Shown here piece by piece: positions 1 through 52,900 of a stretch of DNA of 64,000 bases. Position 1 is the first letter of the stretch, and each line of letters opens with the position of its first letter. The notes beneath the pieces are model-generated. The model was not told where the DNA came from. It searched no databases and was given only the letters and a program-made list of their open reading frames with translations. The translations under genes were made by a program, and so were the position numbers. The stretch covers positions 62,001-126,000 of the IMG/VR virus record IMGVR_UViG_3300045993_000425. One strand, written 5' to 3'. The DNA comes from a virus.

Positions 1-1490
1 AGCAAGTACCGTACCTACTTCGTTGAATGCCCCAGCGGTAGATTTGGTGTCGGTCCCGAGAGCCGTGACATCAGCAGCCTCGGTCCCGGTTTCAGTCAGA
101 ACCTCTGCATCGCTCGAGGAGATAGCTCCAGATGCCGAAATCGTCCCAGACTCAGAGAGCAGGAGAGTGTCGGATGAAGTGGTAGCTCCAGTAGCTGAAA
201 CCGTCCCAGATTCAGGTAGAAGGAGGCTGTCAGCGGCTGATACAGTTCCAGAAGCAGCCGTGGTTCCTGTTTCGCCCTCGAGGACCGAGTCTAGGGTCGC
301 TTGAGTAGAACTGGCTCCTGTGGATCCTGACTCTGCTGCCTGACCGGCATCGCTACCGGCTGTAGTCCAGGCAGCCGACACAGTGCCAGAATCAGCCCAA
401 GCCAGAGCTTCAGCACCAGCTACGGCACCAGAGGCTGCTACTGTGCCTGTTTCGTTCTCGGTTAGGCTCTCAGATGACGCTACCGCAACTGTCGCGGCTG
501 TAGTCCCTGACTCGGCACCCTGAAGGGCATCCGAGCCTACACCTGTCCCATCAGCTAGGACAGTGCCGGTTTCGTTGAAGACACCTCCCGCAGTCTTGGT
601 GTCAGTTGCTCCAGGTGTCCCTACGCTTGCTGCTACGGTTCCTGTTTCCGCGTATGCAGAGGCATCGGTGCCAGCCGAGGAGGCAGAGCCACCTACAGTA
701 GAGGTTTCTGCTCCGACCTGGGCATCGCTAGCTGCCGTCGCCCCAGAAGCGGCAACCGTCTCAGTTCCAGCATTGGCTGCTGCGTCAGTTGCGGCAGAGC
801 TCGAGGAACCACCAACCGTTCCGCTTTCACCTTGCTGGCCTGCGTCCGAACTGGTTCCCGTATTGCTCGCAGCAACTGTCCCTGACTCGCCCCAGTTTGT
901 TGAGTCAGAAGAAGCGGTTGCTGCTGTAGCTGAATCGGTTCCTGACTCAACGACAAGGAACGAGTCGCTACCGGCTACCGCACCAGTGGCGGCTGTTGTT
1001 CCTGACTCAGCCCACTGCAAGGCTTCAGAGCCGACAATGGTCGCAGAAGCCCCTACAGTTCCTGATTCTACCCGTAATGTGGCATCGTTGGCTGCTACCG
1101 TCGCGGCTGCTGCGACAGTCCCCGTCTCGACCTCTACGAAGATGTCTGTGGCCGCCACCGTAGCTGCGCCAGGGACTGTTCCTGACTCAGCGTCTAGGAT
1201 GGCATCGAGAGCACTAGCCGCAAAAGCTGCGCCAGTACTACCTGAATCTGACCCAACTAAGGCACCTGAGTCGGTGATCCCTGCTGTTGCGGCTACGGTC
1301 CCAGACTCGCCCCTTACAGAGGCATCGGTTCCAGCCGATGAGGCGGAACCAGCTACAGTCCCAGACTCAGCAATGATGAATTGGTCGCTACCTGCTACGG
1401 AAGCCGCTGCTGATGCGCTACCTGATTCGCCATAGACAACGGCATCAGACGCTGCAACAGAAGCTGTCGCCGCTACTGAGCCTGGCTCTG
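1..1490 (-). repeat. 60-bp tandem coding repeats (about 25 diverged copies)
   Basis: Within the partial gene, the motif GAxTCxGGxACx recurs on the minus strand with a 60-bp period, giving exact 20-residue protein units. Copies differ at many positions but the spacing is held almost perfectly; the longer unit near 560-620 carries a few extra residues. The constant period with diverged nucleotides points to old duplication and selection on protein structure rather than recent slippage. Confidence 0.8.
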
Positions 1491-23870: not shown

Positions 23871-24210
23871 GGGCATGTAACGGTATCGATTTCGGGACGA
23901 GAGGATAGAACGCGAGCAGGGCAAGCCTATGGCCCTTCAAACCCAAGGCAACGCAACAACTGCCAACGACAACGTTGAGCAGGCCGCTTACGCTCTCGCA
24001 GCGTAGCGACCCGGAGAACGGTGAGATACCTCTGGTAACCGTCAACTCCGTCAGCACAAGAGGCGCCTAGACTCGGGTCACCGGGGTCCAAGGTAGACAA
24101 ACAGGTGCTGCAAGGTAGCCGAAGACCACGCCTGGAGCCGCCAGGACACGCTCGTAGGGTTCTACCAAACAACCTGAAAGACATGGGTTCGACTCCCATC
24201 ATGTCCACCA
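23871..24210 (+). ncRNA. ssrA: Phage-encoded tmRNA (one-piece)
   Basis: The 5' end GGGCATG pairs with CATGTCC at the 3' end to make a tRNA-type acceptor, followed by encoded ACCA. The T-arm is ATGGG-TTCGACT-CCCAT. The tag frame begins at 23962 and encodes ANDNVEQAAYALAA followed by TAG (24004-24006), with the typical ALAA end recognised by ClpXP-type proteases. Total length 340 nt is normal for one-piece tmRNA. tmRNA rescues ribosomes stalled on broken or stopless mRNA and tags the product for degradation. It sits between ligase and tRNA-Tyr. No separate promoter is convincing: a TAGAAT at 23863-23868 is too close to the mature 5' end. Confidence 0.93.
23962..24006 (+). other. tmRNA tag-peptide reading frame
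   Basis: 14 codons plus TAG within the tmRNA. The resume codon is inferred as GCC by analogy to the Ala resume codon of known tmRNAs. The frame is also open upstream, so the exact resume point needs experiment. Confidence 0.75.
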
Positions 24211-24477: not shown

Positions 24478-26049
24478 ATGCGACTGATCGAGCAGACGGT
24501 AGAGCTAGAGTGGATCACCCCTGATGCCCTCAAGGTCATCGAGACGGCAGGTCGGGTATCCTACAAGTCGGAAGACCTCATCACCGACACCTCCGCTGCT
24601 GTCTTCGTAAATAAATTGAACCGGCTCGGTCACCACAGCGTCCTGGAGCATGCCTGTGCCTCTGTCAGGGTTGTGACAGATAGAGGTATCTCTCACGAAC
24701 TGGTTCGGCACAGGATTGCCAGTTTCACCCAAGAATGCGTATCTGGAGATACGAAGATCGACAAGAACCTTACGATCAAGGAAGCGTTTGATCGTCGGAA
24801 GCAAGGTCTACGCATCAAGAGCGAGATGGCCGGTCGAATCGTTCCAAATTGGATCGATGAGGTTCTTTACAATGGGAAAGCCCCTGTATACAGGGTTACC
24901 ACCAGGCTTGGCTATTGCATCAAGACGACATTGGCTCATGAGTTCAAGAAATCAGATGGAGAGTTCGTCAGACTCGAGTCACTAACGGTCGGTGACAAGG
25001 TAATGGTCAACGGAAGACCATGCTTGTTAACTATATCTGACGATGCACTAGAGTATGAGTACTTTGGGCTCCACCTGGCTCCGACAGAGATAGCTGAGAA
25101 GTACATGGTTTCTGCTCAGGTGGTTCGGCGGCGGCTCCATAAGCTTGGCATCTTTGAGAAACACATCAACGACAAGAACCCCGACAAGTACAGCAAGAAC
25201 GTCACGCAGTACAGCATTGAGAAGATGAGAGAGGCTATTCTCGATCAGTACTCCAATGGACGAAAGCCTTGGAATCTTGGGCTCACAGAACATGACCACC
25301 CAGGTGTCGCGACACAAGCAGATACACTCCGCACTCATCACTGGGATAATTCCCAACGACCAAACCACGGTCCCGGTATCGTCGATACTGTAGGTCACAT
25401 GAGAGCTCGCGAATTGAAGATCGATGTAACGTCGTGCGAGTTATGCTCTTGCGACACCGACCTACACGTTCATCACATCAACTCACTTCCACATGACAAC
25501 AGAATGGAGAATCTGATCAAGGTATGTGTCAAGTGCCATGCTAGACTTCACTGTGGGTGGTGGTTGGCGGTTGTTGCCCATCCAGATGAAATCGTCTCTA
25601 TCGAACTAGTCGGTGAAGAGGATGTCTACGACCTAAGAATGCGCCCTCCGCTGCACAACTACATAGCAAATGGCTTTGTTGTGCATAATTCCACGAGATA
25701 CGTCTCCTATGCCAAGGAGAAGCATGGGGGAGGCGACATCCGCTTCATCCTCCCTGTCGGCCTGGATGAGTACCAGCAGAGGCTATTTGAGCAGGCCTAT
25801 CGGGACTCTGAGAGGCACTACCTCGAGGCTATCCGGCTTGGCTGCTCTCCCCAGCAGGCGAGAGACATCCTCCCCTGCGGTGTCAAGACAGAACTAGTGA
25901 TAACCGCTAACTTCCGCGAATGGATCCATATCCTTACCCTCAGGACGGACAAAGCTGCCCATCCCAAGATGCGAGTCCTGGCTGGGATGATCAGAGATGT
26001 ACTATCAGAGCAGTGTCCTGTCGTTTTCAAGACTGAGGAGAAGCCGTGA
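24478..26049 (+). CDS. thyX: Flavin-dependent thymidylate synthase ThyX, interrupted by an intein
   Basis: 523 residues as translated; splicing gives 205, a normal ThyX length. It converts dUMP to dTMP with FAD/NADPH and methylene-tetrahydrofolate. The signature RHRxxS...S-x-R is split: the N-extein ends RHRIASFTQE and the C-extein begins STRYVSYAKE, so the active-site motif is complete only after splicing. Other ThyX hallmarks are present: SVLEHACASVRV, ELVRHR, ARDILPCGVKTELVITANFR and RTDKAAHP. The gene follows tRNA-Tyr by 13 bp and overlaps the next gene (GTGA). It fits with the neighbouring nucleotidase in nucleotide supply. Confidence 0.93.
   Translation: MRLIEQTVELEWITPDALKVIETAGRVSYKSEDLITDTSAAVFVNKLNRLGHHSVLEHACASVRVVTDRGISHELVRHRIASFTQECVSGDTKIDKNLTIKEAFDRRKQGLRIKSEMAGRIVPNWIDEVLYNGKAPVYRVTTRLGYCIKTTLAHEFKKSDGEFVRLESLTVGDKVMVNGRPCLLTISDDALEYEYFGLHLAPTEIAEKYMVSAQVVRRRLHKLGIFEKHINDKNPDKYSKNVTQYSIEKMREAILDQYSNGRKPWNLGLTEHDHPGVATQADTLRTHHWDNSQRPNHGPGIVDTVGHMRARELKIDVTSCELCSCDTDLHVHHINSLPHDNRMENLIKVCVKCHARLHCGWWLAVVAHPDEIVSIELVGEEDVYDLRMRPPLHNYIANGFVVHNSTRYVSYAKEKHGGGDIRFILPVGLDEYQQRLFEQAYRDSERHYLEAIRLGCSPQQARDILPCGVKTELVITANFREWIHILTLRTDKAAHPKMRVLAGMIRDVLSEQCPVVFKTEEKP
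24736..25689 (+). mobile_element. Intein with HNH endonuclease inside ThyX
   Basis: 318 residues (87-404). It begins CVSGDTKI, has block B TTLAHEFKK and ends IANGFVVHN before Ser405, so Cys1, the block-B His, the final His-Asn and Ser+1 are all present and splicing should work. The insert holds a helix-turn-helix-like stretch (TEIAEKYMVSAQVVRRRLHK) and then an HNH nuclease: CELCSCDTDLHVHHINSLPH, an N in NRMENLIKVCVKC and HARLH, with CxxC pairs for zinc. Target choice inside the ThyX signature motif is typical of inteins, which favour invariant sites. Confidence 0.92.
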
Positions 26050-26959: not shown

Positions 26960-27277
26960 ATGTCAGAACACTGCCAAGGCCTCCTGCTCTGTCGTAGTTG
27001 CTGCGCCTCCTACCTGGGCGTTAGCCTCAAGACATTCCAGCGACATATCAGACCCAGCCTCAAGGGTGTGCGTGTCGGAGATGTCCGATGGACCAAGGCC
27101 GGCCTCGATGAGTGGGTCAAGTCCCACCAGGAGGCTCCATGTCAGGCTACGAAGTATTCCAGAAAAAGAACGGATCAGGCAAGGTTAGCCCCTTCTACAG
27201 GGTCCGCTTCACCCTCGACGGCAAGCAGGTTAGTTTCCCAACGGGTGAGAGAGATGGAGCGGCTGCTGACCGGGTAG
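26960..27277 (+). CDS. Excisionase/MerR-type helix-turn-helix protein
   Basis: 105 residues. After a CRSCC motif comes an HTH of the excisionase/HTH_17 kind: ASYLGVSLKTFQRHIRPSLK, then VRVGDVRWTKAGLDEWVKSH, where the wing and a final DEW-type helix are typical. The last 35 or so residues overlap the integrase coding region in another frame and look like non-selected sequence. It would bind att arms or the integrase promoter and steer excision versus integration. No clear ribosome site precedes the ATG. The integrase frame is -1 relative to this gene. Confidence 0.65.
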   Translation: MSEHCQGLLLCRSCCASYLGVSLKTFQRHIRPSLKGVRVGDVRWTKAGLDEWVKSHQEAPCQATKYSRKRTDQARLAPSTGSASPSTASRLVSQRVREMERLLTG

Positions 27278-28392
27278 GTGCTCAGATCTACCTGACTCAC
27301 CACCAGCAGGCTGGGAAGCCGGTTCCTGAGGGTACAGTCGACGCAGAAGACATCACCCTGGTCAGGGTCGGAGCCATCCTTCTGGTAGCCCTAGAGGATG
27401 AACTCGCCAGGGGAGACATCAAAAGGGGCCCCAGGTTTGTGAAGGATGTCCGCTTTGATATCCGAGGCATCCAGACCAAGTTCCAGACGATCACCCAGCT
27501 AACCGGGCCAGAGTGGACCAAAGCCGTCAAAGAGTGGCACGCTGGCTATCCTGACAGGAAGGAAGCCCTTAGCTGGCGCTACCTCCAGCGATGGACCATC
27601 ACAGCTAGAGCTCTGACCAGGCACGCGAAGCTGCTAGGGCTGATCGATGTCGTCCCGACCCTTGTCGCTCCCAGCAATGAGCAGGTCAAGAACGAAGAGG
27701 CTCATCGCAGAGCCTACTCGCTGGACGAGAGGGACCTCTTCCTGGCCACTGTAGCCGAGATGGCTAAGGACTCCCCCAGAGGCAAGAGGAAGGGGAGGAG
27801 AGCCTACAGGGCCTTCCTGGTGCTCTTCACGACAGGTCTAAGGAAGTCGGCCCTCGAGCGGATGAGAGTCAGGCAGATCAACTGGGATACCGGCTTCGTC
27901 GTTCTACCGGCTGGAACGATGAAGAAGAGGAACAGGGATCGCGAGATCTGGCTGCGCCCAGAAACCAAGCAGGCCATTCTGGAGGAGCTGGAGGAGGTCA
28001 GGGCAGACCTGGGACGCGACCTCCTGCCTTCCGACTTCGTCTTTGGCGAGATGGACCTCCGCTATTGGTTCAGGTCTGCCATCAGAAAGGCGGGCATCGA
28101 CCCTCGAGGTCTGACAGCTCACCATGCGACCAGGCACACCCTAGCCACCCAGCTAGGTGACGCTGATGCCACCCTGGCCCAGATGCTAAACACCTTCCAC
28201 TGGGAAACACCTACGATGCCAGCTCGGTACATGCACGACAACGCCCAGCTCGCTAAGGCTGCATTAGAGCGACTCCCACCGCCGGTACTACCTCTGCCTC
28301 AATCAAAAGCTAGCGTTGCAGGAGAGCCCGTTTCCGTTCGCCTGGATGCCGCTCCTGAATCCGGTCGCAATCTGCCTAACCAGACCACTTAG
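27139..28392 (+). CDS. int: Tyrosine-type site-specific recombinase (integrase)
   Basis: 417 residues from the ATG at 27139 behind AGGAGG; an in-frame start 9 codons earlier exists. N-terminal arm-binding region (FYRVRFTLDGKQVSFPTGER), a core-binding SAM-like helix domain (about 90-190), then the catalytic domain with all key residues: Arg in TTGLRKSALERM, Lys in AGTMKKRNRD, HxxR in TAHHATRHTLATQLGD, His/Trp in LNTFHWET and nucleophile Tyr in MPARYMHDN. The unusual Pro-rich C-terminal tail of about 40 residues extends beyond the Tyr helix. It carries out phage integration and, with the HTH protein, excision. Att-like repeats follow 250 bp later. Confidence 0.93.
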   Translation: MSGYEVFQKKNGSGKVSPFYRVRFTLDGKQVSFPTGERDGAAADRVGAQIYLTHHQQAGKPVPEGTVDAEDITLVRVGAILLVALEDELARGDIKRGPRFVKDVRFDIRGIQTKFQTITQLTGPEWTKAVKEWHAGYPDRKEALSWRYLQRWTITARALTRHAKLLGLIDVVPTLVAPSNEQVKNEEAHRRAYSLDERDLFLATVAEMAKDSPRGKRKGRRAYRAFLVLFTTGLRKSALERMRVRQINWDTGFVVLPAGTMKKRNRDREIWLRPETKQAILEELEEVRADLGRDLLPSDFVFGEMDLRYWFRSAIRKAGIDPRGLTAHHATRHTLATQLGDADATLAQMLNTFHWETPTMPARYMHDNAQLAKAALERLPPPVLPLPQSKASVAGEPVSVRLDAAPESGRNLPNQTT

Positions 28393-29254: not shown

Positions 29255-29340
29255 TGGTGCCCCGAGTCGGACTCGAACCGACAAGCCCCTGAGGGCAGCT
29301 ACTTTTGAGGCAGCCGTGTAAACCGTTCCACCATCGGGGC
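29255..29340 (-). tRNA. tRNA-Leu (CAA)
   Basis: Minus strand: acceptor GCCCCGA pairs with TCGGGGC. The anticodon stem GCTGC/GTAGC (one G-T) encloses loop CTCAAAA with anticodon CAA, reading UUG. A long class II variable arm and T-arm GTCGG-TTCGAGT-CCGAC follow, with encoded CCA at 29255-29257. It lies 435 bp from the att-like repeats. Confidence 0.95.
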
Positions 29341-29356
29341 TATGCCTGACACTAGC

Positions 29357-29686
29357 CTACAACGATCTGCAAGGGAAGGGGTCGATGCGATACTGCACCT
29401 CCGACCCAAGAGTCTGAGCAATCGCCAGCCTGCCCTTGACGCTGGTCGAGTGGATGATGACCTCGCCAGGTCGAAACTCCTTGGGCGTGCTGAACCTGAT
29501 GAAATGGGCCAAGTCGGACCCATTCCTGTCTGGCTGGAAGTCGAAGTCGAGAAAGAGACGACCGACCCTCCACCCCTGGAGGATGACCACTGCCTCCTCG
29601 TAAGTCGACACCATGTGGGCCTTGGGCAGCCGCTCCCTGAACCAAGCGAGCCTGCCGGGGTCATCATCTACAACGAGGTCGATCAC
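29357..29686 (-). CDS. Cyclic-phosphate-processing receiver-like (cREC) protein
   Basis: 109 residues from a GTG that overlaps the upstream stop (GTGA); longer frames are ruled out by that gene. A receiver-like alpha/beta fold: IDLVVDDDPGRLAWFRERLP, then GRLFLDFDFQPDRNGSDLAH and a strand with EVIIHSTSVKGRLAIAQTLG. The DDD cluster, the DFD strand, the NG-D-x-A and the H-S-T-S-x-K-G elements match the cREC domain family, predicted in the literature to process cyclic phosphate ends during RNA repair. It is the last gene of a coupled minus-strand unit that also encodes a polynucleotide kinase. Activity is inferred from family. Confidence 0.7.
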   Translation of the reverse strand: MIDLVVDDDPGRLAWFRERLPKAHMVSTYEEAVVILQGWRVGRLFLDFDFQPDRNGSDLAHFIRFSTPKEFRPGEVIIHSTSVKGRLAIAQTLGSEVQYRIDPFPCRSL

Positions 29687-30075
29687 AGCGAGGCTCTGTC
29701 CAGCTTTAGGGGTCTGTCCGGAAACCCTGGACGATGAGCCATCACCGCACAAGAGCAGAAGGCGCAGTGAGTCAACTTGCCTTCTTCCAGGTGGCACTCG
29801 ATGTCATGTCCGCACCGGCAGAAGATAGGCGGATCGACCTCCTCTTTCCGCTTGGATGACATGACGAACAAGCTGGGGATCTCCTCCAGGCCCACTGTCA
29901 CGCTACGCACCTCCATCTTGCCCTCCTGCCTGACAAGCCAATCATCGCAGAAACGCCGCATCCGAATGTAGGTGTCGCTGGCTACCATGACAACAGCAGC
30001 TTCTGCACTGTCGGCCTCTACGAAAACTCCGTTCGTCTCTTCGTAGTCTCTGCACCACACCCAGTATCTGCTCAT
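29683..30075 (-). CDS. Protein with C-terminal Cys/His metal-binding motif
   Basis: 130 residues. The N-terminal half (MSRYWVWCRDYEETNGVFVE, AEAAVVMVASDTYIRMRRF) is alpha/beta. Around residues 84-108, IFCRCGHDIECH and LTHCAFCSCAVMAH give a CxC-x4-CH...CxxCxC arrangement able to bind zinc. The upstream gap is 12 bp and its stop overlaps the cREC start. Not recognised. Confidence 0.6.
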   Translation of the reverse strand: MSRYWVWCRDYEETNGVFVEADSAEAAVVMVASDTYIRMRRFCDDWLVRQEGKMEVRSVTVGLEEIPSLFVMSSKRKEEVDPPIFCRCGHDIECHLEEGKLTHCAFCSCAVMAHRPGFPDRPLKLDRASL

Positions 30076-30087
30076 TTTAGGCCTCCC

Positions 30088-30258
30088 CTACGGTTGTCCA
30101 CGAGACAGCGCAGCCTTGTGGAGGATCGCTTGCTCGTCTTCCTCTTCTTCAGCACCATCAGCCTGCTTGCTGTCCTTGCTGTAGCACTCATCGATGGCTT
30201 TGACCTCTGCCATAAAGAGGTCGATCTCCTCCTCGGTCATGTTGTCTCGGTACTTCAC
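30088..30258 (-). CDS. Short acidic protein
   Basis: 56 residues from a GTG in the GTGA overlap with the upstream micro-gene; the first ATG is six codons further in. Charged helix (TEEEIDLFMAEVKAIDE, then ADGAEEEEDEQAILHKAALS). No hydrophobic core visible, so likely disordered or a partner-binding peptide. Confidence 0.5.
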   Translation of the reverse strand: MKYRDNMTEEEIDLFMAEVKAIDECYSKDSKQADGAEEEEDEQAILHKAALSRGQP

Positions 30259-30365
30259 TTGATCGCCCCGATTCGCCTGAGAGCTTTGAAGAAGAACAAA
30301 GGAACGGATGCGAACAGAAGCATCGAAAAGACGAGCCAGAAGTCTGGATTTCTATCTGATTTCAT
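30255..30365 (-). CDS. Single-helix membrane micro-protein
   Basis: 36 residues: MKSDRNPDFW, then the transmembrane helix LVFSMLLFASVPLFFF, then a basic tail KALRRIGAIK. The ATG is preceded by AGGAGGG at optimal distance and overlaps the upstream stop (ATGA), and its stop overlaps the next start (GTGA), which is strong evidence that it is real. Topology suggests N-out or a type with a positive-inside tail. Function unknown. Confidence 0.7.
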   Translation of the reverse strand: MKSDRNPDFWLVFSMLLFASVPLFFFKALRRIGAIK

Positions 30366-30688
30366 GACTTCCCTCCTGAGATGACTACAGCAGCACCAGC
30401 CAGCAACATCCCAACAACCTGCCTACCGCCTGGTGCCTGCCTAGTCAGGTAGTACACAATCAGCGGCTCTGCGATCACCACCGATGATACGGATGCCACA
30501 GACACGACCCAGATGTCCCCGATGTGCTTGAGGCCTTGGTTGTAGAGCACCAGCAGGGCTAGGGCAGAGGACATCTGGACCACCAGGACAGGAGGAGCCC
30601 ACCAATTGCTCTGAGCGGCTAGCACCTCGGCGTAGATCATGGCTCCTTCAGCAGCAGCCATTCCGAGGCAGAACAGGACGATACTCAC
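30362..30688 (-). CDS. Four-helix membrane protein, DMT/EamA-half-like
   Basis: 108 residues from a GTG overlapping the upstream stop (GTGA). Four hydrophobic helices (IVLFCLGMAAAEGAMIYAEV; PPVLVVQMSSALALLVLYNQ; IWVVSVASVSSVVIAEPLIV; QVVGMLLAGAAVVISGG). The pattern with a C-terminal GMLLAGAAVVISG helix resembles the small DMT/EamA-type or SMR-type transporters that work as dimers. Substrate unknown. Confidence 0.65.
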   Translation of the reverse strand: MSIVLFCLGMAAAEGAMIYAEVLAAQSNWWAPPVLVVQMSSALALLVLYNQGLKHIGDIWVVSVASVSSVVIAEPLIVYYLTRQAPGGRQVVGMLLAGAAVVISGGKS

Positions 30689-30969
30689 TGATTCTCCACC
30701 TTGAGGGCGGCGCGGGCCAGTTCGTTCACGGCACGATCCGCCATGTCTCCTGCGGGGCGCGTCCGATCCTCGATCTCCCGCAGCGCCGCCTCCAGCTTCC
30801 CTGCGTAGATCTCCCAGCACTCTGCCAGGGCTGTATCCTCAGGCGAGTGTCCAGAGATGTCGAGGTGCGCCCCACAGAGCTCGCCGGGACGACTCATGGC
30901 AAATCCGCTAGAGTGAACAGCCTGCTCCTTCTTGCAGCGAGGGCAGAACTCAGGTGTATATTCGCTCAC
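30685..30969 (-). CDS. Protein with N-terminal zinc knuckle
   Basis: 94 residues from a GTG overlapping the upstream stop. FCPRCKKEQAVHS with a later CGAH could form a zinc ribbon; a helical C-terminus (AECWEIYAGKLEAALREIED, VNELARAALKVE) follows. The ribosome site is encoded inside the KEKP C-terminus of the upstream gene. Not recognised. Confidence 0.6.
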   Translation of the reverse strand: MSEYTPEFCPRCKKEQAVHSSGFAMSRPGELCGAHLDISGHSPEDTALAECWEIYAGKLEAALREIEDRTRPAGDMADRAVNELARAALKVENQ

Positions 30970-31346
30970 GGCTTCTCCTTGAGGGCGGCGCGGGCCTTGT
31001 CCAGAACCCTTTGGATGCTCTCATCCACTTCGCCGTCCACCCTGACTAGCTTCTCCCAGGCAGCGACAGCGAGGACATCTTGCAACGCCGCCTCCAGGCG
31101 ATTGATGCGGTCGGTCGCCACCTTGTTCGCCACATAGAGCTGTGCATTCTGGATAATGCCCTGAACAGACAGCACCTTCTCCAGCTTGCTCTCCAGCGTC
31201 ATGCTGTAGGCCACCTGCCTCTCGTAGCCCAGCTTGTAGCAATCGCCGGTAGCCCGATCTGGCAGCCCAACTGCACAATGAGCGGCGTAGCACCCATCCC
31301 CATCGGGGGTGTTTCGGTGACGACCGCAGACCTCACAGATGTCCAT
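30966..31346 (-). CDS. Protein with N-terminal Cys cluster and coiled helices
   Basis: 126 residues from the ATG in TGATG; a GTG four codons upstream also fits. MDICEVCGRHRNTPDGDGCY begins with a CxxC pair followed by two further Cys, then a helical region (SMTLESKLEKVLSVQGI, DRINRLEAALQDVLAVAAWE) ending RAALKEKP. It is coupled on both sides, to the kinase upstream and the zinc-knuckle gene downstream. Not recognised. Confidence 0.6.
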   Translation of the reverse strand: MDICEVCGRHRNTPDGDGCYAAHCAVGLPDRATGDCYKLGYERQVAYSMTLESKLEKVLSVQGIIQNAQLYVANKVATDRINRLEAALQDVLAVAAWEKLVRVDGEVDESIQRVLDKARAALKEKP

Positions 31347-31813
31347 CACGGCTGCCACCCGATGGCCAGGATGGACTCAAATCCCTCCTCCAGCTTGGGC
31401 TCGTCCAGCTTGCCAGCCACCCGCTCGAAGTCCCGGTCAGGAACCCGCCGATCAGGGGGGCGAGCCTGGTTACGCTTCCGGCAGACCTCGATGGGGGTAT
31501 TCATGAAGACGGCCTCGACGCGGAGTGCCGCCCCAGCGCAGATGTTGATGATGGCAGCACGGTCGATCTCCCGGCTGAACTTAGCGTCGAAGATCACGGG
31601 ACGACGGTCGTCCAGGTCGATGATCCATCCCCCAAGCCGGTTATAGGAGGCTCGCCATGCCCTCGCCGCCCGCTGGGGGCTCCAGTTGTAGCGACCATCG
31701 ACACCCACCAGCTGGGCATCGGGAGAGATGACGAGAGCGTCCCCCTTGTGCTGTTCCAGCCAGGTCGTCTTGCCAGAGCCGGGAAGTCCCACCATCAGCG
31801 TCAGCATCTTCAT
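31346..31813 (-). CDS. Polynucleotide kinase (P-loop, T4 Pnk-like)
   Basis: 155 residues. Walker A is MVGLPGSGKTTWLEQ; ISPDAQLVG and FDAKFSREIDRAAIINI follow, the latter matching the region that positions the 5'-OH substrate in Pnk-type kinases; the lid and C-terminal segment is CRKRNQARPPDRRVPDRDFE with KLDEPKLEEGFESI. It would transfer phosphate from ATP to a 5'-OH RNA or DNA end. The 3'-phosphatase half of T4 Pnk is absent; the cREC protein four kilobases-scale downstream in the same unit may supply end processing (inference). Length is typical for stand-alone kinase domains. Confidence 0.82.
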   Translation of the reverse strand: MKMLTLMVGLPGSGKTTWLEQHKGDALVISPDAQLVGVDGRYNWSPQRAARAWRASYNRLGGWIIDLDDRRPVIFDAKFSREIDRAAIINICAGAALRVEAVFMNTPIEVCRKRNQARPPDRRVPDRDFERVAGKLDEPKLEEGFESILAIGWQP

Positions 31814-31827
31814 CGCATCCTCCTAGT

Positions 31828-32157
31828 TTAGCTTCTGTTCATTTCCAGAATAGCACCATCGCTCGTACTGTACTGCACCCTCCTGACACCCGCCTTCCGA
31901 AGGGCCTCCTGACACTCAGGGCAGGGCTTGGCGAGCCCCCACTCCCCTCTGATGCGAACCCTGATCGAGAGGACATCTGCTCCCTTGGCAGCCTCTCCTG
32001 CCTGCTCCAGAGCGTGGATCTCAGCATGTTTCGTAGCTGAGTTCCAGCCGGTAGCGATGACCCTGCGACCGACGAAGATGAGAACGGCATGCTTGTGCTG
32101 CCGATGCCTCGCCTTCCTGACCGCGAGCCTCTCTGCGACTCTGATAGGAGCGTTCAT
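31828..32157 (-). CDS. Zinc-dependent deaminase-like protein
   Basis: 109 residues. The cytidine/deoxycytidylate deaminase motifs are present: THAEIHAL at residues 42-49 (here read KHAEIHALEQ, with His and catalytic Glu) and KPCPECQEAL (PCxxC). The N-terminus contains KHAVLIFVGRRVIATGWNSA, the usual substrate strand. The ATGA overlap couples it to the upstream gene. It might deaminate a nucleotide or an RNA/DNA base; substrate specificity cannot be read from sequence. Confidence 0.8.
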   Translation of the reverse strand: MNAPIRVAERLAVRKARHRQHKHAVLIFVGRRVIATGWNSATKHAEIHALEQAGEAAKGADVLSIRVRIRGEWGLAKPCPECQEALRKAGVRRVQYSTSDGAILEMNRS

Positions 32158-32588
32158 GCCGCCCCACTGATGAGTCGCTCCAAGTCGAACCGCTCTCCGA
32201 TCACTTCAGAAGCGAAGACCTCCAGCCCAGAGGCGAAGACCACCCTCCCCTCCTGCTCGAGGACGTATTCTGGAACCCTCTGCTCACCCAGAATGAACCC
32301 AACCCCAAGAGGGGTGGGCCTCCAGGCTCCGTAGCTGGGGTCCTTGCTGTCTTCTGCCTGATACTTCTCGATCAGCCCCCAGAGGGCCAATCGGGAGTAG
32401 TCATCCCCCTGAGGGGGAGCGTCCGTCCTCTTCCCAGCCTTGGGAACCCAAGGGAGCAGCCCTTGCTTGACCTGCTTCCGGCTCTCCTGAACCAACCAGG
32501 CGAGCCACTTGACTTGGGACTTCCTGAGGGTCCGCTTATACTCTCGGACCTCATGCCCGCAAGCCCGACATTTGTGGGCGACCCTCAT
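32154..32588 (-). CDS. Protein with N-terminal zinc finger-like motif
   Basis: 144 residues. Begins HKCRACGHEVREYKRTLRKS, a single CxxC. A likely winged or helical domain follows (VKWLAWLVQESRKQVK, YSRLALWGLIEKYQAE) and then LGVGFILGEQRVPEYVLEQE, a layout reminiscent of small transcriptional regulators with a winged helix. It overlaps the micro-gene upstream (TGATG) and the deaminase downstream (ATGA). Function unknown. Confidence 0.6.
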   Translation of the reverse strand: MRVAHKCRACGHEVREYKRTLRKSQVKWLAWLVQESRKQVKQGLLPWVPKAGKRTDAPPQGDDYSRLALWGLIEKYQAEDSKDPSYGAWRPTPLGVGFILGEQRVPEYVLEQEGRVVFASGLEVFASEVIGERFDLERLISGAA

Positions 32589-32665
32589 CAGTTCTCCCCC
32601 AGGTCCTTGAGGGTGATGAGGCAGAAGAGGACGATTGCCATCAGCGGGAGCAGGACGATTTCCAT
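32588..32665 (-). CDS. Micro-protein, single hydrophobic helix
   Basis: 25 residues: MEIVLLPLMAIVLFCLITL followed by KDLGEN. The start follows a GGAGACAAAA ribosome site, and its stop overlaps the ATG of the next gene (TGATG). Likely a membrane micro-protein or a translational coupling leader. Confidence 0.5.
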   Translation of the reverse strand: MEIVLLPLMAIVLFCLITLKDLGEN

Positions 32666-32675
32666 TTTTGTCTCC

Positions 32676-33020
32676 TTAGTCAGCGTAGATGGCCGAGTAC
32701 CAGCCGGTGCAGGCCTCTGCCCACAGGTCCTTCGCGTCGAGAGCCTTCTGCATCCCGTCGATCAGGCTCCACCCGTACTCGAGGGCGGTATCGGAGTTGA
32801 AAAAGTACCGGATGTCGCCACCGTCGTAGACGACGATGAGAGCTGCACCCTTGCCGTACTCCTCGCCCCGCGCCGACCACTCCTGAGGCGAGTAGAAGGT
32901 CTTGCAGCCACCCGAGTCGGTCAGGCCGTTCTTCTCCAGCTGCTTGATGATTGCCCGGTAGGCCTTCTTGCCTGCGCCGGAGAGTCCTTCGGGCTGCTCG
33001 AGGTTCTTGATGTCGGCCAT
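32676..33020 (-). CDS. Small soluble alpha/beta protein, first gene of the unit
   Basis: 114 residues from the ATG at 33020 behind AAGGAGCTC; a longer frame would start inside the promoter. Helix (GKKAYRAIIKQLEKNG), then strands ALIVVYDGGDIRYFFNSD and a helical end (YGWSLIDGMQKALDAKD). Small proteins of this type are common in phage early regions; no function recognised. It sits directly behind a strong promoter, so it should be among the most highly expressed in this unit. Confidence 0.65.
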   Translation of the reverse strand: MADIKNLEQPEGLSGAGKKAYRAIIKQLEKNGLTDSGGCKTFYSPQEWSARGEEYGKGAALIVVYDGGDIRYFFNSDTALEYGWSLIDGMQKALDAKDLWAEACTGWYSAIYAD

Positions 33021-33058
33021 TTTGAGCTCCTTGGTTCGGGGTGAACTGCGATGAAGAG

Positions 33059-33087
33059 ATACTATCAAAACACCGAGCAGAGGTCAA
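33059..33087 (-). promoter_or_regulatory. Promoter for the 29357-33020 unit
   Basis: Minus strand: TTGACC, 17 bp, TGA-TAGTAT. Strong match of the phage promoter family, 39 bp upstream of the first start. Confidence 0.8.
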
Positions 33088-40690: not shown

Positions 40691-41056
40691 ATGACCGAAA
40701 TCGACAGCAACGCGAACACCATCGACAGCCGCGACGTGATCACCCGCATCAAGGAGCTGCAGCTGGAGATCTCGGAGGAGGACAAGGTCGAGTTCGAGGG
40801 CCAGGAGGAGCTGGACAAGCTGGTCGACCTCCAGGAGCGGTGCGAGGGGTACTGCGCCGACTGGAAGTACGGGGCAATCCTCGTCTCGGACAGCTACTTC
40901 ACCGAGTACGCTCAGACGTTGGCAGAGGACATCGGGGCGGTCGGGAGCAAGGTGGAGTGGCCCTACACCTGCATCGACTGGGAGGCAGCGGCGCGGGACC
41001 TCAGGATGGACTACACGCCCGTCGACTTCGACGGCACCACCTTCTGGTATCGCTAG
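40691..41056 (+). CDS. Acidic conserved-type early protein
   Basis: 121 residues. Long helix (SRDVITRIKELQLEISEEDK, VEFEGQEELDKLVDLQER), then ILVSDSYFTEYAQTLAEDIG and WPYTCIDWEAAARDLRMDYT with a final VDFDGTTFWYR. The IDWEAAA-x5-DY...F-x-G-x3-WYR end is a pattern I have seen in proteins of mobile elements, sometimes near antirestriction genes; I do not claim that activity. Strongly acidic. First gene after a strong promoter. Confidence 0.65.
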   Translation: MTEIDSNANTIDSRDVITRIKELQLEISEEDKVEFEGQEELDKLVDLQERCEGYCADWKYGAILVSDSYFTEYAQTLAEDIGAVGSKVEWPYTCIDWEAAARDLRMDYTPVDFDGTTFWYR

Positions 41057-49979: not shown

Positions 49980-52900
49980 AGTCGAGGCCTCCCATAGGAG
50001 ACTGATAGTAGTATGGGTTCTCGTCCTCTAGGATATGTGTTGGCGCGTCAAGTAGATGGAAATGCATTTCCCGAACCAGCGAATCGAACATACCACCACG
50101 AATCGGAGTCTTTAGGTCAAACCAACCAGAAGAGCCAGTTGTTGGATGTAGGATGTGTGAGAACTTCCTCGCAGCCCAGACATACCTGTGCCTATCAGTA
50201 GAAGCTGGCGGCAGGAGGCCAAATCTCCGATGCAGGAACATCTGGGAGAGGAACTTCAACCTCTCAGAATGAGACAGCTTCTTGCATTGCAGCGCATACC
50301 AGACGACCATGTGGTTTAGCTGCTTGCGCTTCCCTTCCAAGCCTACCACCGTATTGTCGGGCTTGTTGTCACTGTATGTCGGGTCATCGAGTCCCTCAAT
50401 GTGTGCGACTAGAGCCCCGAACCTCTGTACCCAACCAACGTAGGCACAAGCTCGCCTCGCTTGGATGAGCTGTGGCCTCTTGGCTCCCTCTGGCAAGTCA
50501 TCTGGGTATACACCACCAGGGTAGTCATCTTTGTCATATGAGTTTTCAGCATGGAGCAACCCACCTCCATCCCCCCACTTCCAAGGAGTTCTGTCGCTCC
50601 CTAAGATGTGTCTTATGAACTCAGGAGTGTAGTGCTGGGCCAAGATCTCCGTCGTCGCCTCCTCTAGGGCCTTGGCGCTATCTGAGTCGTAGTCGTGATA
50701 TTGGGAGGCACCATGCATGGCTTCGTGCAGGTAGACAGTTACAGCATCATCATAATCCCACAGGTTCGCACCCGAGTCAGCATCCGACAGTACCTTGGCG
50801 AAGTCAGACGCATCCTGGCGACCCATCACGATCTTGCCAGCCCAGGTGTGATGAGCTCTGGCTTCAGGCAGAGGCAATGCCCGGTCAATCGCACCACCTA
50901 AGCGGTTGCCTACAGGATTGCGTGCCCCCACCATAGCAACAACAGCTCCACCCAGCTTGATCAGAGCCGACTGGTTGCGAGTGAAGTCATCAGCCCTGTT
51001 ACCATCCACATCTTCCTGGTCATAGTCCCAGATGGGCTTCCCTTGGATGTGGGTCGTCGGCTTCCAGTCATCCTTCAGGTCAGGAGCATGGCTCCCCCAA
51101 GCCGGTAGAGGGAACTCGATCTCGTGGTTCGGCTTGGAGTCATAGGGCTCACCTGACCAGTACAGCTTGGGCTGTGGAGGCAGAGGAGCAATAGCTGGTG
51201 CAGGGACGACCTCCACCTTGGGCTCAGACTTGGGCGCCTTCTTGCGAGGCTTCTTGGCCTTAGGCGGCTCTGCCTTCTCGAGTGCGCCGATGTTGACCTC
51301 AGAGCAGGGCACAGCCTCCACCCAGTAAGCCCTTCCATCAGGGAGTTTCCCTCGAGGTGGCTGGTCGGTGCGGAAGAAGACCAGCTGGCTGCCTGGGGGC
51401 AGAGCTAATTGGAGCTCCTGGTAGAGAGGGATCGAGGATGGCCAAGCTGTTACGGCTTTCCCTTCCACCACCTCGTCTGTCACCTCTGTCGGGATGAGCC
51501 TGTCAGCTAGATGCTGCGCTGCGGCAACGATAGGCATGATCGTCATCCAGCCTGGCACCTCTCGCTTCCGCTCTGCGATCCACCCATGCAATTGAGACAA
51601 CCAGACGGCCTGCTGGTCATCATCTGAGGATTTACCCAGTTTGTTCCTCTCTGCATGAGCCGCAATCTCGGCAGGGTTACGCCACCAGTGACCTCCACCC
51701 CATCTCTCCTCTACCTGCTGCCTAATGAAACCAGCAGCACCGAATGCCCTCTGGGACCCAATGTTGTTGGTCGCAATAAATGCGCGAGCTGGCTTGTCCC
51801 CAATGTACTGCTTGAGAGCCCTACCCGCATGACCATTGCCTCGAGCGGCTGGAGTGATATAAGTCGCACCAGCTCGAATAACACCATCCTCAGTCCTGGG
51901 TGTGAAGAAACCTACCGGCTTACCAGCGTGGTCCAGAATGGGGTGGCGATAGGCTCCATCCTCTGAGTCAACATGCCCACGCAGCTCTGGGTCATTTGAG
52001 GCCTCATCGATTAGGTGAGCCAGATTTGGTTGCTCCCCCTTCGCCAATCCAGCCGGTAGCGGCTTGATGAGGTGTTTCTCTGACCTGTCCTTCTCATACT
52101 GCAACCGGAACTGAATCGCCTTCTGAATATCCCTGTAAGCCACAGACTTGGCATCAGCCGGTAGGGACTCGTGAAGGAGAGCTATAGGAACCTTCCTGTT
52201 GCTCAAGACGGCCTTCCTGACCTTAGGGCTGGTGTGGTTGGCCAGGAGGGAGATGATCTCAGGGCTCAGGTTCTTCTGTTGAGCCAAGTCCCGTAGCTGA
52301 GACTCGATGTTATTGGAGTTTCTGGGATGATTGAATAGCCGGTATGCGACCGCCTGAAGGCGAGGAGATATCCCGATATTCACCATCCTCCGACTGAGAT
52401 CGTCAGCATTCGTCTGTAAGTCGTCGACACCTACACTAGAGCTTCCAAACCTGTCGAGAGCGGCCTCAATCGCCTCATCACTAAGGCGATGGTTGTGGAG
52501 TAGCATCTCAGTCAAGAGATTCTTTGTGCCGACATGCTGCTGGTGGTTGATCGGGTTCCGACACTTGCTAGCTAGAGACTCCACCGCAGCAGCAGACAGT
52601 GGAGCGTTTGCCACCATCTGATTCCCCATGCCAACGGCTGTTACCGCTTGCTGGGCGCGAAACAGTCGGTCTGCCTGCTGCTCTGTAAGGTTTGGGTTTC
52701 CAGCTAGCCAGTCAATATGATTCAGAGGCTTGCGATTGCTGTGGTTCTTGGTCGCCCAATCTACCATTTCATCTAGGAGTGAACCCGACACCAGATTGGA
52801 TTCAACCAAGGGTTGAGGAGCCTCCTCTGGCTTGATTCTCCTCCATAGCCTTTCCATGTGGGCACTTGTTGCGTTTGGGTGCATGGTCAGGCGTGTGACA

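Follow-up and report, generated by a model that had tools for sequence, protein, structure and literature searches.

A minus-strand phage operon with a Pnk-fold kinase and a divergent cREC protein, and a predicted RNA ligase encoded in the same record

The IMG/VR virus record IMGVR_UViG_3300045993_000425 is 166,843 bases long, and its bases 62001–126000, a stretch of 64,000 nucleotides (nt) hereafter called the window, carry a minus-strand row of small genes at window positions 29357–33020. Among these genes are a polynucleotide kinase (Pnk)-fold P-loop kinase, a cytidine/deoxycytidine monophosphate (dCMP)-type deaminase, and a receiver-like protein of the cREC family. Here, we document this operon and its promoter, the families, predicted folds, and conserved residues of its proteins, a predicted RNA ligase and another cREC encoded at other sites of the record, and the linkage of such genes in viral relatives. 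We put at about an even chance the reading that the kinase and cREC of the unit, together with the distant ligase, form an RNA end-healing and sealing set. Positions are those of the window unless the record is named.

The transcription unit and its promoter

Positions 29357–33020 form one minus-strand transcription unit of twelve genes. The gene preceding it encodes a helicase and ends 97 nt upstream of the unit. Counted from the helicase down to a tRNA-Leu gene at the far end, there are 13 junctions; seven are 4-nt ATGA or GTGA overlaps and one is TGATG, and the remaining gaps within the unit are about 10–16 nt. The unit promoter (33058..33087, minus strand) lies in the gap between helicase and unit. 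It is a sigma-70-type match with zero mismatches, TTGAC-N15-TGATAGTATC, with a 17-nt spacer and an extended -10 in which TG stands ahead of the -10. Because the junctions and promoter are so placed, the interval marked out by an earlier, sequence-only reading of this DNA corresponds almost exactly to one transcription unit. That reading had described a coupled minus-strand unit, and the description held: the genes it named lie at the place and on the strand given, in a single block with overlapping junctions and a promoter.

All twelve genes are on the minus strand. The first (32676..33020, 114 amino acids) is an open reading frame (ORF) with a ribosome-binding site and only a weak PHROG terminase-small-subunit match (4e-4). 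A hydrophobic micro-protein of 25 amino acids (32588..32665), read from the sequence, shares a TGATG overlap with the next gene, which encodes a 144-amino-acid protein with an N-terminal CxxC pair (32154..32588; PHROG_2693, 5.8e-12). The cytidine/dCMP-type deaminase (31828..32157; PF00383, 2.1e-9; PHROG_174, 1.2e-10) and the kinase (31346..31813; 155 amino acids, kinase domain only; AAA_33, 1.1e-19) follow. Two Cys-rich small proteins come next, one overlapping the kinase stop by 4 nt (30966..31349) and one of 94 amino acids (30685..30969). This second one and the next three genes each begin with a 4-nt overlap, the three encoding a hydrophobic, probably membrane, protein of 108 amino acids (30362..30688, no PHROG), a 36-amino-acid hydrophobic micro-protein (30255..30365), and a 56-amino-acid acidic protein (30088..30258). 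A Cys-rich protein of 130 amino acids (29683..30075) starts 12 nt past the previous stop. The cREC-family protein (29357..29686; 109 amino acids, PF20274), divergent in its motifs (DFD, HSTS), closes the unit; the GTGA overlap at 29686 argues against a longer 146-amino-acid start for it, which was rejected.

The zinc-knuckle and membrane micro-proteins announced for the unit are present as Cys-rich proteins (the genes at 30966, 30685, and 29683 and the N-terminus of the product at 32154) and membrane-like proteins (30362–30688, 30255–30365, and 32588–32665). Their Cys motifs and hydrophobic stretches were read directly from the sequence, and profile searches gave no useful family match for them. 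A tRNA-Leu (CAA) gene with encoded CCA (29255..29340, minus strand; ARAGORN, Rfam 53 bits) may be co-transcribed with the unit because it lies 16 nt past the last stop, that of cREC, on the same strand.

The promoter sequence is repeated. TTGAC-N15-TGATAGTATC occurs in 11 copies in the window (22677–44088) against 0.04 expected from shuffling, with further copies elsewhere in the record, and it precedes many phage genes, including those for the DNA ligase, the helicase, and an ArdA-like protein. It looks like an early-promoter family. A longer leader model gave 13 record copies, all at gene starts, a figure biased by a model that was built from three copies and includes the start region. A version of the motif with a 16-nt gap gave nothing above chance; the correct gap is 15.

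Kinase, cREC proteins, RNA ligase, and deaminase

The assignment of a Pnk-type kinase was supported, since polynucleotide kinases are nearest in both sequence and predicted fold. Four PDB chains matched the sequence, all of them the Clostridium thermocellum (C. thermocellum) Pnkp kinase and none other. In the predicted structure, with a predicted local distance difference test score (pLDDT) of 94.5, the top 14 PDB fold matches are Pnk/PNKP chains, ahead of metabolite kinases. The P-loop GLPGSGKT and the catalytic D32 are present, this Asp being kept in 31 of 32 aligned kinases, and lid residues R114, R118, and R122/R123 correspond in the alignment to R117, R121, and R124 in the C. thermocellum chain. 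In the proposed repair set, the kinase would phosphorylate 5'-OH RNA ends. The C. thermocellum Pnkp kinase domain (PDB 4gp6), the best match in both sequence and fold, thus shares P-loop, Asp, and lid arginines with the phage kinase at about 23% identity over the fold alignment, whereas the phage enzyme has no fused phosphatase or ligase domains. The PHROG_2071 "ATPase" kinases are similar as small stand-alone enzymes with a D...GxYNWxP motif and no DxxR Arg, and they lie one or two genes behind an RNA ligase in Pseudomonas phage Amme-3 and Acidovorax phage ACP17. Their lid and C-terminus differ from those of the phage kinase, and they form a separate, well supported tree branch. In the nearest kinase relative (L022:8004–8489), the SPD-GxYxWTP segment stands in front of the P-loop, not behind it; the swapped order is possibly a natural permutation or an assembly artifact.

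cREC proteins have been proposed to open 2',3'-cyclic RNA ends or cyclic ADP-ribose phosphates, with cyclic ADP-ribose derivatives offered as an equal alternative substrate. Gene neighborhoods tie them to RNA ligases; in V5-like phages, the partners are a T4-like ligase and a nucleotide kinase (PMC7824862, PMC9503650). The family is described as experimentally uncharacterized (PMC9503650). The cREC of the window matches PF20274 at 37.4 bits (cut-off 27, E 4.1e-9), and its model (pLDDT 96.8) has response-regulator receivers as nearest folds. In an alignment of 27 viral cRECs it retains D7 and D8 (the Asp dyad), D47 and D49 (DxD), H79, S80, and G85. A second, canonical cREC lies outside the window (record 145641–146057, L012:5641–6057, minus strand) with the DD, DHD, and HSMNPxG residues; across 100 aligned positions, the two cRECs of the record share 28% identity. 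In another viral record, a cREC relative directly ahead of an RNA ligase (L052:230–544) has lost the DHD motif wholly. As this relative suggests, noncatalytic cREC copies may occur.

The sequence-only reading had found no RNA ligase visible and proposed that one be sought beyond the window. The absence holds for the window and fails for the phage: the one PF09414 RNA ligase of the whole record lies at record 51706–52779, outside the window. Its PHA02142 OB domain and RNA_ligase domain are both over cut-off and its best PDB match is the Naegleria gruberi RNA ligase, which together point to an Rnl5-type enzyme. The gene sought is thus there, predicted as Rnl5-type rather than Rnl1, and a T4 Rnl1-family ligase is absent from the record. 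The phage ligase resembles the N. gruberi Rnl5-type ligase (PDB 5cot) in its N-terminal OB and RNA_ligase domains, at low sequence identity. By reading, the adenylation motif EKLHGTN is present, and homologues of this ligase are annotated as RNA ligase in cultured phages.

The deaminase carries the zinc motifs HAE and PCxxC, read from the sequence, and scores above the PF00383 cut-off. RibD and dCMP deaminase score above TadA among its PDB matches, all weakly, and PHROG_174 is a dCMP deaminase family. No relatives were found among the viral contigs, and four weak ones were found among the named phages. A similar deaminase lies near a cREC in one record (L058, 29% identity), a single case. The earlier inclusion of the deaminase in RNA repair was not supported; the enzyme scores as cytidine/dCMP-type. 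Most likely, it serves pyrimidine-nucleotide metabolism and is carried along in the unit; this role suits it better because the phage has a rich set of deoxynucleoside triphosphate (dNTP) genes.

Relatives, gene linkage, and other cargo

At the DNA level, the unit region has no counterpart in the named phage collection. Because close relatives of the unit DNA, the kinase, and the cREC number none or one, conclusions on the unit rest on distant relatives. An alignment-based scan for kinase relatives gave 28 viral records, with a PF09414 ligase in 11 and a cREC in 3. The scan for cREC relatives also gave 28 viral records, 16 with a PF09414 ligase and 11 with an AAA_33 kinase. The trio of Rnl5-type ligase, Pnk-like kinase, and cREC is found in at least three other phages (L080, L070, and L034/L014), within about 6 kb. 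In L034/L014, one strand carries cREC, Rnl5-type ligase, and kinase together with a metallophosphoesterase-like gene over some 6.5 kb. In L080, the ligase is followed by kinase and cREC overlapping by 4 nt, with the trio within 2.7 kb. Another record, L040, has the kinase 5 nt behind the cREC.

For a statistical test of linkage, cREC was placed at random within each record of at least 40 kb. Within-record positions served as the null because the helicase, considered as a control set, had no relatives with exact peptide patterns and was dropped. In 7 of 14 records, a PF09414 ligase is found no more than 5 kb from the cREC, against 1.3 expected (p = 1e-4), and when likely related records were dropped cREC was near the ligase in 5 of 12 (p = 0.003). 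A link between kinase and ligase is likewise seen in the viral records (p = 0.006).

The window also encodes an integrase, ThyX, an ATP-dependent DNA ligase, two tRNAs, and a transfer-messenger RNA (tmRNA). The tmRNA (23871–24210, plus strand; Rfam 87.9 bits), tRNA-Leu, and tRNA-Tyr were confirmed by Rfam. An ARAGORN tRNA-Ala within the helicase gene was discarded, being antisense and not in Rfam. ARAGORN seems to place the tmRNA tag (VNSVSTRGA) wrongly; the sequence itself gives GCCAACGACAACGTTGAGCAGGCCGCTTACGCTCTCGCAGCGTAG, which is a ANDNVEQAAYALAA tag of the ordinary kind. No phage relatives of tRNA-Leu or tmRNA were found that would point to a host. A tyrosine-recombinase integrase gene (27139–28392, plus strand) ends about 0.86 kb from tRNA-Leu, which could equally be its attachment site. 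dNTP genes are plentiful in the record (ThyX, ribonucleotide reductase, dUTPase, DCD-like, DNMK, and NT5C), and the ThyX gene (24478–26049, plus strand) is interrupted by an intein splicing domain. At the record start (record 48–953, plus strand; L005:48–953), a 301-amino-acid protein has a partial match to the Cpn60 chaperonin family (8e-12), and record 126001–166843 (L011–L013) holds odd phage cargo in a GGDEF domain protein, an HSP20-like protein, DUF932, and a ParB HTH domain. An ArdA-type antirestriction match at 40691–41056 (plus strand) is weak, at 25.4 bits against a cut-off of 27. The gene sits behind an exact copy of the promoter of the kinase/cREC unit. PrrC-type nucleases respond to antirestriction, hence the interest of this ArdA-like gene.

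Proposed RNA repair and competing functions

The unit is best explained as an auxiliary operon belonging to a large tailed phage, and we infer the catalytic steps, their substrates, and the link to host nucleases as follows. A host endoribonuclease, for example an anticodon nuclease, would leave a 5'-OH end and a 2',3'-cyclic phosphate. The Pnk-like kinase would phosphorylate the 5'-OH, and either cREC, the window copy or the canonical one, would open the cyclic phosphate. A phosphatase, which is the gap in the set, would take off the remaining phosphate, and the Rnl5-type ligase would then seal the ends. The tRNA-Leu of the unit could stand in for a damaged tRNA. Phage tRNAs have been proposed as substitutes for tRNAs cut by host nucleases (PMC10264068). 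UUG makes up 9.6% of the phage Leu codons, which we counted against the replacement idea.

The RNA-repair proposal of the sequence-only reading stood in part. The Pnk-like kinase, the Asp and His-Ser residues of cREC, the ligase in the same record, and the gene linkage in relatives speak for it; the deaminase and several further observations weigh against it. Loss of the predicted cREC residues had been named as evidence that would count against repair. The Asp dyad, both DxD aspartates, and His-Ser are kept, but F48 replaces the DHD His and S82 replaces the HSxN Asn, each present in 26 of the 27 aligned viral cRECs, and the window copy is the only one with Phe and Ser at these two positions. 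The search pattern constrained HS and, loosely, Asn, and left the DHD His free, so the His difference is the cleaner of the two. In the kinase, Leu stands for the Arg of DxxR (SPDAQL), which T4 and C. thermocellum types carry, and Lys for the Thr of DAT. The kinase joins L022 in the tree (97/90), outside the main RNA-ligase-linked clade, a placement to be read with care since the L022 segments were rearranged into matching order. In the L022 record, which may be incomplete, no PF09414 ligase and no cREC is seen. Kinase, deaminase, and cREC of the unit lie dispersed among small orphan genes, and the ligase ends 38.6 kb from the window cREC, outside the unit. The cREC–kinase pairing alone is not significant despite two directly adjacent cases. 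No 3'-phosphatase, 2H, KptA, or sirtuin was identified among record ORFs of 55–700 amino acids. The record encodes an NT5C HAD enzyme. A metallophosphoesterase at record 157099–158079 was set aside as a 3' phosphatase, as it reads as an Mre11/gp47-type recombination protein.

A first alternative, which we consider unlikely, is a nucleotide-metabolism cluster. The kinase substrate would be a small molecule, such as a nucleoside or a nucleotide, the deaminase would convert dCMP to deoxyuridine monophosphate for ThyX, and cREC would act on a nucleotide by-product, with no RNA repair in the unit. The abundance of dNTP genes (ThyX, ribonucleotide reductase, dUTPase, DCD-like, DNMK, and NT5C), the dCMP-type scores of the deaminase, and the missing DxxR Arg of the kinase are consistent with such a cluster. 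So are two neighborhoods assigned by reading: the L022 kinase has an intein-containing ribonucleotide reductase reading frame in its vicinity, and the L080 cREC has DHFR- and thymidylate-synthase-like genes right behind it. However, polynucleotide kinases outrank metabolite kinases in both fold and sequence matches, an RNA ligase is in the record, and cREC relatives cluster with ligases.

That same clustering bears on a second alternative, counter-signaling, in which cREC, and perhaps the kinase, would destroy a cyclic or ADP-ribose-derived alarm nucleotide of host defense while the ligase is used elsewhere. The papers defining cREC give cyclic ADP-ribose derivatives equal standing as substrate (PMC7824862, PMC9503650), and a divergent paralogue such as the window cREC is what a changed substrate would lead one to expect. 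Against this, the linkage in relatives is to RNA ligases, and no Macro, Nudix, NADAR, or sirtuin partner was found among the same 55–700-amino-acid ORFs. We consider counter-signaling quite improbable. Less probable again is a promoter-driven row of unrelated early accessory genes with no common pathway, a tRNA-Leu that is an attachment site, and a window cREC that is maybe inactive: small orphans do separate kinase, deaminase, and cREC, the window copy diverges at two near-invariant residues, the L052 relative lost its DHD, and the integrase ends close to tRNA-Leu, but ligase, kinase, and cREC co-occur in the other phages named above, and the window cREC retains all four Asp and His-Ser.

Within RNA repair, a more specific variant is the least probable of the proposals made here. 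The window cREC (DFD/HSTS) and SPD-GxYNW kinase would be a repurposed pair whose substrate is not the usual 2',3'-cyclic and 5'-OH ends but, for instance, a tRNA end that is modified or wobble-excised. The pair would be produced along with a replacement tRNA-Leu(CAA), and ordinary repair would fall to the canonical cREC.

The association of cREC, kinase, and ligase is already published as a prediction, and the phage set is a variant of it, not a new system. Like the known cREC neighborhoods (Escherichia phage V5/Proteus phage Mydo type and jumbo-phage cREC–ligase pairs; PMC9503650, PMC7824862), the set combines cREC, kinase, and RNA ligase in one phage, with predicted healing of cyclic-phosphate RNA ends. 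It differs in having two cRECs, one divergent, a unit that includes a deaminase and tRNA-Leu, and an Rnl5-type ligase 38.6 kb off; neither sirtuin nor KptA was identified among the 55–700-amino-acid ORFs. With these differences in partners and ligase type, the set agrees with the published proposal in part. With T4 Pnkp and Rnl1, which counter PrrC, it shares a 5' kinase fold, an ATP-grasp RNA ligase, and a tailed phage with its own tRNAs; here, however, the kinase domain has no phosphatase domain, Rnl1 is lacking, and cREC takes the place of a known 3' phosphatase. The new elements are the same-phage ligase, the pairing of a divergent with a canonical cREC, a promoter that is defined, and the quantitative linkage test across viral contigs.

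The linkage count gives independent, quantitative support to the published cREC proposal. With two natural cREC paralogues that differ at two near-invariant residues, a small kinase, and an Rnl5-type ligase, four small proteins would be enough to rebuild the whole pathway as proposed. The first test is probably best made with L080, in which 2.7 kb hold ligase, kinase, and cREC together.

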